Shown here one piece after another: positions 3,003 through 48,487 of a stretch of DNA of 64,000 nt (positions are counted from its first letter, which is position 1; every line of letters starts with the position of its first letter). The notes below the pieces were generated by a model. It was not told the origin of the DNA, did not search any database, and saw only the letters and a program-made list of their open reading frames with translations. The position numbers and the translations under genes were made by a program. The stretch is from Beutenbergia cavernae DSM 12333 (GTDB lineage: Bacteria > Actinomycetota > Actinomycetes > Actinomycetales > Beutenbergiaceae): positions 4,403,025 to 4,467,024 of the forward strand of contig NC_012669.1 in assembly GCF_000023105.1 (NCBI RefSeq). Direction: 5' to 3'.

Positions 3003-3900
3003 GGTCCACTCCTCGAGCACACTCGACCTCCGGCGTCGCCGTGCCGCGATCGCCCTCGCGGCACCAGGGTTCGGCCTCATCTGGCTGACGATCCTCGTCC
3101 CCCTCGCGGTGGCCGTCGGCCTGAGCCTCACGCGCTACGACCTCATCAATCCGCCCCAGTTCGTCGGCCTGGACAACTACCGGAGCGTCCTCGCCGACGA
3201 CGTGTTCTGGACCGCCGTCGGAAACACCGTCGAGTTCGCCCTCGGCCAGGTCGGCATCGGCATCGTCGTCGCGATGTTCGTGGCTGTGCTCTTCAACCGG
3301 GCGTTGCACGGCGGGCCACTGATGCGCACGCTGGTGTACCTCCCGCAGGGGGCGTCCTACGTCGTCGTCGCCCTCGTGTGGACACTGCTCTTCGACCCGG
3401 TCGCGGGGCCGTTCAGCCAGCTGAGCGAGGCCGTGCGGGGCGAGCCGATCCACTTCCTCACCGACATCGACCTCGCGATGCCGTCGATCATCGCGATGAG
3501 CCTGTGGCGCAACCTCGGGTACTTCATGATCATCCTGCTCGCGGCGCTCCAGGCCGTCCCTCGGGAGCTGCTCGAGGCGGCGGAGGTCGACGGCGCGGGT
3601 CCCGTCCGGCGTTTCGCCCACGTGACGCTCCCCCAGATCCGTTCCGCGACGGTGTTCGTCCTCATCACCTGGTTCCTCGGTGCGCTCCAGATGTTCACGC
3701 AGGCCTACGTGATGACGGGCGGCGGACCCGTGAACGCGACCCGCACGATCGTGTACCTGATGTACCAGGAGGCCTTCAGCGGCCTCGCCTTCGGCAAGGC
3801 CTCGGCGATCGCCGTGCTGCTCTTCGGCACCGTCGCGGTCGTCGCCGGGGCTGCCCGCCTCGTCGGCTACCGCCAGGCGAGCGCGCGGAGGTCCGCATGA
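2992..3900 (+). CDS. Sugar ABC transporter permease (MalF/UgpA type)
   Basis: A 302-residue inner-membrane protein with six predicted membrane helices. The permease EAA loop, where the ATPase docks, is visible as ELLEAAEVDGAGPVRRF at about residues 195-212. The ATG at 2992 lies inside the end of the binding-protein gene, giving an 11-base overlap and likely translational coupling. It forms a heterodimeric channel with the product of the next gene, which it overlaps as ATGA. Confidence 0.93.
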   Translation: MASEVHSSSTLDLRRRRAAIALAAPGFGLIWLTILVPLAVAVGLSLTRYDLINPPQFVGLDNYRSVLADDVFWTAVGNTVEFALGQVGIGIVVAMFVAVLFNRALHGGPLMRTLVYLPQGASYVVVALVWTLLFDPVAGPFSQLSEAVRGEPIHFLTDIDLAMPSIIAMSLWRNLGYFMIILLAALQAVPRELLEAAEVDGAGPVRRFAHVTLPQIRSATVFVLITWFLGALQMFTQAYVMTGGGPVNATRTIVYLMYQEAFSGLAFGKASAIAVLLFGTVAVVAGAARLVGYRQASARRSA

Positions 3901-46835: not shown

Positions 46836-47130
46836 ACCGTGTGGTTCGTCCCGCGAATAGCCACCACAGGGGAACACCCACACGGTGACCAGCCAGAGGC
46901 CCGAGCACCGTGTCGTTGTTCCCCCGAACGACCCCTTCCCGGGAACAACCACACGGTGACCCCGGCGTCACGGCGACCGTGTGGTTCGTCCCGCGAATAG
47001 CCACCACAGGGGAACACCCACACGGTGACCAGCCAGAGGCCCGAGTACCGTGTCGTTCGTCCCCCGAACGACCTCTTCGGGGGAACAACCACACGGTGAC
47101 CCCGGCGCCACGGGGGAACCACCTCACGGT
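46836..47130 (+). repeat. Hairpin array 1: four 51-bp palindromes plus a half unit
   Basis: Units at 46836-46886, 46907-46957, 46976-47026 and 47047-47097 each start ACCGTGT and end CACACGGT, with arms of 17 bases around a 17-base loop. Units 1 and 3 are nearly identical, as are 2 and 4, giving a 140-bp higher-order repeat. The joining segments (GACC..) are conserved too. A lone right arm lies at 47112-47130. The array fills the 307 bases between the HMA gene and the 3' end of the AbiEi-like gene. Confidence 0.85.
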
Positions 47131-47140
47131 AGGTGCCCAG

Positions 47141-48094
47141 TCACGCGCCCCGACGCCGACGCGATCGCAGGAACTCCTTCACCTCCGCGGGGATCACACC
47201 CGTCCACACGTCCGCCGGGTCGTACCGGAGAACTGTCGCCTCGCCCGAGATCGTGAGGCCGTTCTGCCGACGTTGGTCCTTGCGCCGGGCACGGCGTGCA
47301 GCGTGAGCATCCTCGCCCTCGATCTCGGCGAGCAGCCAGGTCCTGGGGTCGATCTGCCACCCGAGATCGCCGCGGGCGCGCCGGCCGTCGGGAAGGACCA
47401 TCGGGACCTGGAGCTCGTCGGGAGCGATCCCGGCGTCGTGACACTCGAGCCGGGCGAACGTCTCGTACGTCGACTCGGACCTGGCGTCCACGAGGTCCCA
47501 CCACCCTGCGGCTCGGCTGGCGCCTCGACGGTGGCGGACGACGTCGCGCACCTTGGCGATGTCAGCGCCGTCGATGCGCTCCAGGTTGAGTGCGGAGTCG
47601 AGCAGAGCGACGGCGTGGTCACGATCGAGCTCCGGGATCGCCTGTGCGAGTGCGAGGCCAACGGGAGCTACCGCATACCCCTCGCCGGTTCGCGTGACCC
47701 GCGGGACGGTGAAACGGCGCACGCGGATTCCGTCGCGGGACAGTCGGCTGTCGCCGCTCGGGAGCGCTACCTGCGGGAGAGAGCGAAGCGGCAGACCCCA
47801 GAGGCCGTGCAGCGCGAGCGCAGACGTCCCCACCGCCACCGCTTCCGGGCCATAGGCGAGCAGGCCGAGCACCGCACCGCGTCTCCGGCGCCATCCGGGG
47901 TCCATGTCGACCGCCGCACCGGGTGCAAGGTCGTACACCCCACGCGTCGGGCGCACCCAATCACCACGTGCCACGCGGACGGCGCGGGCGTTCCTGGTGA
48001 TCCCGGCCGCCTCGCACTGCGCCGTCGTCACCAGGCCGAACTGCAGCCGGGCCGCATCGAGCAACGCCTGCGGAGTGGGAGCGAGCGTGCGCAC
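47141..48094 (-). CDS. AbiEi-like winged-helix protein with DUF559 nuclease-like domain
   Basis: A 317-residue protein. The N-terminal part (LDAARLQFGLVTTAQCEAAGI, then WVRPTRGVY) matches the AbiEi-type winged helix of type IV antitoxin-like proteins. The C-terminal part (RARGDLGW, then LLAEIEGEDAHAARRARRKDQRRQNGL and VLRYD) resembles the DUF559 fold, related to very short patch repair and PD-(D/E)XK nucleases. No AbiEii toxin partner is adjacent. The GTG start at 48094 is placed by family fit; no strong ribosome site is seen. Two arrays of the same hairpin type flank it, one on each side. Function is unknown; DNA binding is likely. Confidence 0.8.
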   Translation of the reverse strand: MRTLAPTPQALLDAARLQFGLVTTAQCEAAGITRNARAVRVARGDWVRPTRGVYDLAPGAAVDMDPGWRRRRGAVLGLLAYGPEAVAVGTSALALHGLWGLPLRSLPQVALPSGDSRLSRDGIRVRRFTVPRVTRTGEGYAVAPVGLALAQAIPELDRDHAVALLDSALNLERIDGADIAKVRDVVRHRRGASRAAGWWDLVDARSESTYETFARLECHDAGIAPDELQVPMVLPDGRRARGDLGWQIDPRTWLLAEIEGEDAHAARRARRKDQRRQNGLTISGEATVLRYDPADVWTGVIPAEVKEFLRSRRRRGA

Positions 48095-48202
48095 CCCACG
48101 AGGAGACCACCTCCGTCGGACTCCGCGACGTCCAGGTGTGGACAGCCGCTCACACCCGGCCCTGTCCGCGCCCTGGGGACAACCGGTGCGACGCCGGCAC
48201 CG

Positions 48203-48487
48203 ACCGTGCCGAACCTCCCCTGAACGACCACCCTCGCGGGAGCAACCACACGGCGACCCAGGCAAGGACCCGACGATCGTGTGGTTCGTCCCCCGAACCG
48301 TCCCTCCAGAGGAAGAACCACACGGCGACCCAGGCACAGACCCGGCGTCACCGCCACCGTGCGGTTCGTCCCCCGAACCGGCCTCTCCGGGGGAACAACC
48401 ACACGGCGACCCAGGCAGAGACCCGGCGTCACCGCCACCGCGTGGTTCGTCCCCCGAACCGCCCTTCCAGGGGAACAACCACACGAT
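48203..48487 (+). repeat. Hairpin array 2: four 51-52 bp palindromes
   Basis: Units at 48203-48254, 48276-48326, 48356-48407 and 48437-48487 share the arms of array 1 (ACCGTGTGGTTCGTCCC type on the left, GGGAACAACCACACGG type on the right). The period is 73-81 bp with conserved linkers containing GACCCAGGCA. The array lies in the 428-bp region upstream of the AbiEi-like gene start, in the same orientation as array 1. Nothing else is recognised in that gap. Confidence 0.85.

Follow-up and report, generated by a model that had tools for sequence, protein, structure and literature searches.

An AbiEi-like gene family with a putative nuclease domain bracketed by private, REP-like hairpins in actinobacteria

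Why does an AbiEi-like gene lie between two arrays of one and the same hairpin? The question is raised by a stretch of 64,000 nucleotides, hereafter the window, which spans positions 4,403,025-4,467,024 of the 4,669,183-bp single-contig genome of Beutenbergia cavernae DSM 12333. An initial sequence-only reading had described four hairpins and a half unit after the gene and four more hairpins before it, all in one orientation, and both arrays were confirmed at 46836-47130 and 48204-48487. Because the gene runs on the minus strand, it is the left array (46836-47130) that lies downstream. The features of the locus are listed below in window positions.

46836..46886: hairpin 1, downstream array
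46907..46957: hairpin 2, downstream array
46976..47026: hairpin 3, downstream array, a 140-bp tandem copy of hairpin 1
47047..47097: hairpin 4, downstream array
about 47111..47130: half unit (one arm), directly past the stop codon
47141..48094, minus strand: gene for a 317-aa protein with an AbiEi-like winged helix and a putative nuclease fold, GTG start (Pfam, PADLOC, predicted structure)
48204..48254: hairpin 5, upstream array, about 110 nt 5' of the start codon
48275..48326: hairpin 6, upstream array
48356..48407: hairpin 7, upstream array
48437..48487: hairpin 8, upstream array

The locus and its protein

Within the 64-kb window, the hairpins are confined to these two full arrays. The half-site of the hairpin matches the window 18 times with up to three mismatches, against 2.0 matches expected, and at least 18 matches were reached in 0 of 100 shuffles. 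The linkers between the hairpins, taken to be conserved in the sequence-only reading, are shared in part only; the left array contains a 140-bp tandem duplication whose copies are 95% identical. The full hairpin unit, including its ends, is CGACCGTG...CACGGTCG and measures 55-56 bp. As single-stranded DNA, hairpin 4 (57-nt stretch 47044-47100) folds at -17.6 kcal/mol with a z of -3.6, and the only match in Rfam is a sub-threshold one to a miRNA. The genes next to the window gene encode an HMA protein and ABC-2 transporter proteins; no AbiEii nucleotidyltransferase toxin gene adjoins it, as the sequence-only reading had said.

The GTG start codon of the gene was inferred from homologues. Its product matches the Pfam family AbiEi_4 (E 2e-7) and the AbiEi models of PADLOC (E 2.5e-13), which match all ten homologues compared. 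The best of five predicted structures has a pLDDT of 85.9, the other four ranging from 56 to 65, and its best match in the PDB, at E 4e-5, is 6y8q, an AbiEi antitoxin. The same structure matches nuclease folds, among them PvuRts1I, TnsA and I-Bth0305I, only weakly (E > 0.3). The sequence-only reading had called the gene AbiEi/DUF559-type; the AbiEi half of this name stands, but DUF559 (PF04480) has no match at E<=1 in the 10 homologues. The C-terminal part instead matches PF18741 (REase_MTES_1575) in 6 of 10 homologues, weakly (best E 0.0036) and below the curated cut-off (21.2 bits against 38.2 for the protein of locus L043). Three acidic residues, E211, D243 and E257, are invariant in 81 of 81 sequences, and G260, R276 and Q229 are present in 96-99% of them, as would suit an active PD-(D/E)XK-type site. 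The protein is thus an AbiEi-like winged helix to which, judging from the weak nuclease matches and the invariant acidic residues, a nuclease-fold domain is probably joined.

Bracketing across the protein family

The arrangement recurs around related genes. Seven homologues from Cellulomonas, Promicromonospora and Xylanimicrobium, together with paralogues in the B. cavernae genome, mostly share one repeat between their upstream and downstream flanks, and these repeats differ from locus to locus. A homologue search in 297 genomes of the order provided 80 partly non-independent loci, at each of which the 400-nt upstream flank was locally aligned with the 400-nt downstream flank. The two flanks reach a score of at least 55 at 54 of the 80 loci, in 35 of 45 genomes and 18 of 20 genera; this threshold was picked after the data were seen, and 45, 50 and 60 give the same picture. 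Such scores occur in 0.37% of 2138 within-locus shifted windows and in 0.92% of 6208 between-genome flank pairs. Shared flanking repeats are not detectable at 26 of the 80 loci, and in the genus g6 which includes loci L131-L133 and L136, bracketing is seen in just 1 of 10 loci. Bracketing by a private hairpin is a trait of the protein family. The sequence-only reading had proposed looking for hairpins beside homologues in other genomes; they are found there, each lineage with repeats of its own, and the contrary expectation, that homologues lack them, proved false. At one locus, L185 in genome G092, the gene has not one hairpin per side but a long (114 bp) pair of inverted repeats that are highly identical to each other.

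Most of the repeats beside the genes are palindromes, 50-70 bp long. Typically, the upstream copy ends 60-200 nt before the gene and the downstream copy starts at most 110 nt past it. Their arms are unrelated between lineages. CGA...TCG tips are found in 16 of 36 strong hairpins, all 16 of them being 55, 56 or 57 bp from tip to tip, and the window family has the same tips (its ends are CGAC...GTCG) and the same length. Several families form very stable single-strand folds (z of -9 and -11 in two examples); those of the window hairpins are weaker, with z between -1.4 and -3.6. Some loci show additional features. In the hairpin family of the genus g8 (flanks of L204-L212 and L223), a second conserved box, G(T/C)CGGT, lies about 10 nt beyond the end of the hairpin, and on the opposite side there are hints of a mirror image of this box. 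The flanks of L301 and L303 contain shortened palindromes (GCATGAAACCGGGTTTCATC) or single ends next to full 70-bp elements, and the shortened forms look like remnants of internal deletions.

Hairpins also resemble each other only where the proteins do. Between loci, hairpin similarity stays at background until protein identity exceeds about 55-65%. In one conserved neighbourhood, where orthologous genes are 54-67% identical, hairpins compared across loci score only 14-25 in five of six pairs and 60 in the sixth, and the upstream and downstream copies within each locus match with scores of 72-117. Mostly unrelated hairpins between orthologues, with a matching pair at each locus, are what would be expected if protein and hairpin change together. 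Co-change of this kind, with both flanking copies kept alike, requires some homogenisation of the two.

The B. cavernae genome itself encodes further members of the family. The paralogue L046 (582,726-583,673) is 65% identical to the window protein and has its own, different hairpin on both sides (CGACCGTGTCGTGAGGGTCC...); dispersal of this second hairpin was considered and found unsupported, few copies existing beyond the gene flanks. Two more distant members, L052 and L053 (at about 1.94 and 1.99 Mb), lie between tandem arrays with CGCGAGAGG that are oppositely oriented on the two sides, and one of the two proteins weakly matches REase_MTES_1575. Their layout may be a direct-repeat version of the hairpin-gene-hairpin arrangement.

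Dispersal and presence at orthologous sites

The hairpin arms, which had been described as absent elsewhere in the window, are indeed restricted to the two arrays there but not in the genome. The half-site CCGTGTGGTTNNTCCCC, with at most one mismatch, has 64 copies in the 4.67-Mb genome (the reversed control has 0), and 46 full hairpins were recovered from 20 of 24 fetched genomic loci. The family is present at about 20 sites other than the window, most of its clusters being far from AbiEi genes; 4 of 20 clusters lie in divergent intergenic regions as judged with a crude gene caller. Across the 46 hairpins, sequence conservation drops off abruptly beyond CGACCGTG...CACGGTCG. Arrays often have a period of about 82 bp and linkers that are specific to each site, which suggests that hairpins were amplified in tandem on the spot after they had arrived. 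At locus L056 (about 3547-3766; genome positions 3,300,346-3,300,565), eight head-to-tail half units with 29-bp spacing adjoin full hairpins at 82-bp spacing. The occurrence of the same hairpin far from the gene had been named in the sequence-only reading as an argument against a selfish unit. It did come true, but in the form of a dispersed REP-like element, by which the idea of a selfish unit is extended rather than killed.

Two ideas about the hairpin family were rejected. A hairpin family common to the whole order is contradicted by the 296 other genomes, which stand at control level (0-4 half-sites). Mobilisation by a RAYT is ruled out by the lack of Y1_Tnp (PF01797) in the B. cavernae genome at E<=0.1, a domain found in 8 of 14 control genomes.

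Hairpins are dispersed in other genomes as well. When 22 concatenated hairpins were searched in 19 genomes, many matched repeatedly in their own genome or genus. For instance, 22 copies of a 70-bp element (GCATGAAACC...GGTTTCATGC) were fetched from genome G150, all with unrelated flanks. Among the 16 copies that could be classified with the crude gene caller, 10 are in convergent, 6 in tandem and 0 in divergent gene contexts. No target-site duplications were evident by eye in the 22 copies, and covariation within the family is slight, the variation being mostly one-sided. Another example is one hairpin family of the genus g8: three species have 34, 26 and 15 half-sites, two more have 6 and 3, and the remaining ones have 0-3. 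Counts of 3 and 0 belong to the two species in which the gene has no close homologue (G020 and G021), yet G017 possesses a homologue and none of the tested hairpin family.

Comparison of sister species shows the hairpins to be variable at fixed sites. At orthologous intergenic sites, hairpins of three species are missing in others, which once have a short scar and once a single remaining arm. Whole units vary in the same manner. Species G019 carries a 1,210-bp hairpin-gene-hairpin segment where its sister species G016 has 2 bp, between flanks that are 95-97% identical; beyond the hairpins and the gene, the segment comprises some 13-15 bp on the left and about as much on the right. Three further units are without counterpart in G020, with less exact edges. 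Both for hairpins and for whole units, then, orthologous sites can be filled or empty, a pattern compatible with gain or loss. The sequence-only reading had offered a selfish or a defence unit as explanations; the first fits the bracketing of 54 of 80 loci and the presence and absence of units between sister species, and the second found no positive evidence.

Explanations and known systems

In the explanation that we consider probable, the hairpins form a family of short, REP-like palindromes whose dedicated partner is the AbiEi-nuclease gene, situated between cognate copies in a layout like that of RAYTs but with an unrelated protein. We infer that this protein mobilises the hairpins, their association with its gene being directly observed. 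Its AbiEi-like domain would recognise the hairpin and its nuclease domain would cut at or near it, and repair from another copy, or insertion of one, would spread the hairpins. The same repair or insertion process could convert both flanking copies to one sequence and sometimes move the whole unit. Local tandem amplification of hairpin plus linker, following insertion, would account for the arrays at 46836 and 48204.

The findings suggest that the hairpins and their genes form a family of selfish elements, with an AbiEi-nuclease as the enzyme. A broader proposal, for and against which we see the case as evenly balanced, is that of a second, independently evolved class of REP type, in which an AbiEi-derived winged helix joined to a nuclease fold spreads and homogenises its own hairpins in actinobacteria without a transposase, and in which recognition re-evolves so fast that almost all lineages have hairpins of their own.

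Other explanations account for parts of the data. AbiEi antitoxins control their own expression by way of inverted repeats (PMC7319586, PMC3985639), the protein finds its best fold match in AbiEi, and the upstream hairpin precedes the gene by 60-200 nt in most homologues, all of which would suit an AbiEi-type repressor that binds the palindromes for autoregulation upstream and for control of other genes elsewhere, with no mobility. Such a repressor leaves unexplained the matching downstream copy, the tens of dispersed copies with sharp ends, the G150 placement with no divergent context (crude gene caller), the presence and absence of units and the conserved nuclease-like acidic residues. We hold a pure regulator with multiple operators to be unlikely, and less likely than a dispersed element; regulation in addition is possible, given the four B. 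cavernae clusters in divergent intergenic regions. The placement of most B. cavernae clusters at a distance from AbiEi genes might also suggest that unrelated REP-like repeats and an orphan antitoxin met at one locus by coincidence, but the family-wide bracketing, set against its controls, makes this barely credible.

The hairpins might be spread by another enzyme of the cell, with the AbiEi-nuclease gene as a frequent cargo caught between two copies. No transposition chemistry is known for the AbiEi-nuclease protein, and recombination could in principle let hairpin pairs bracket any gene. Set against this are the bracketing of the same protein family in 18 genera by unrelated hairpins, the near absence of bracketing in shifted windows of the same loci and the rise of hairpin similarity only with protein similarity, and we regard such hitchhiking as improbable. 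Improbable, too, is a homing-type or restriction-like selfish gene, whose nuclease would cut DNA lacking or carrying the hairpin and so spread or protect the gene, the hairpins being immobile recognition sites. Vsr-like and related nuclease folds (I-Bth0305I, PvuRts1I) among the weak structure matches and the presence or absence of a unit at a precise site speak for it, but hairpins dispersed in many copies without the gene are not needed for homing.

A dedicated partner gene for private hairpins would matter beyond this locus. REP-like repeats have so far been tied to one class of enzymes, the RAYTs, and many palindromic families, for example the CGTC REPs, are without a known partner; a partner gene that is not a transposase would offer a new handle on the origin and spread of such repeats. 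It would also account for a set of 'orphan AbiEi antitoxin' genes and provide dozens of matched protein-hairpin pairs for studies of DNA recognition. No earlier description of such a system was found in searches of open-access papers.

Several known systems share single features with this one. Type IV toxin-antitoxin systems of the AbiE type have the N-terminal AbiEi fold and inverted repeats upstream of the gene in common with it; they differ in that the window gene has no AbiEii toxin gene next to it, a putative nuclease-fold C-terminus and a repeat that is also downstream and dispersed. REase_MTES_1575 and Vsr-like nucleases (PF18741) resemble the C-terminal part through the weak Pfam match in 6 of 10 homologues and the invariant E, D and E. 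The passages on REase_MTES_1575 in PMC3710099 place this domain in very large conflict-system proteins and mention no association with repeats. CGTC-tagged REPs are likewise dispersed palindromes without a RAYT, but they follow other sequence rules, are mostly alphaproteobacterial and have no known partner gene (PMC3733652).

The closest parallel is the system of REPs or REPINs and RAYT (TnpA-REP) (PMC2817692, PMC3116915, PMC3733652). Its hallmarks are a gene between two cognate palindromes, co-evolution of the two, repeat abundance tied to the gene and arrays near the gene (PMC2817692). Both systems have short palindromes dispersed in many copies and often clustered, a dedicated gene flanked by two cognate copies (here a different gene, at 54 of 80 loci), joint change of gene and repeat, and tandem, BIME-like arrays beside the gene. 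As to repeat abundance, five g8 congeners with the gene and two without show the link to the gene that is known from REPs, and G017, with a homologue but none of this hairpin, departs from it. They differ in the enzyme, which is a Y1/HUH transposase of the IS200/IS605 type in RAYTs and an AbiEi-like winged helix with a putative nuclease fold here; in the repeat, which has a GTAG/CGTC tetranucleotide head in REPs and no such head here, but often CGA...TCG tips and a length of 55-70 bp; and in the host, here an actinobacterium. Lacking both a Y1 transposase and a GTAG/CGTC head, the system is not a member of RAYT/REP, though it resembles RAYT/REP in its working, and it would form a separate class if the protein proves to move hairpins. 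Dispersed hairpins with a dedicated, bracketed and co-changing gene are already known from RAYT/REP, from which this system departs in its enzyme, in the design of its hairpins and in its host group.
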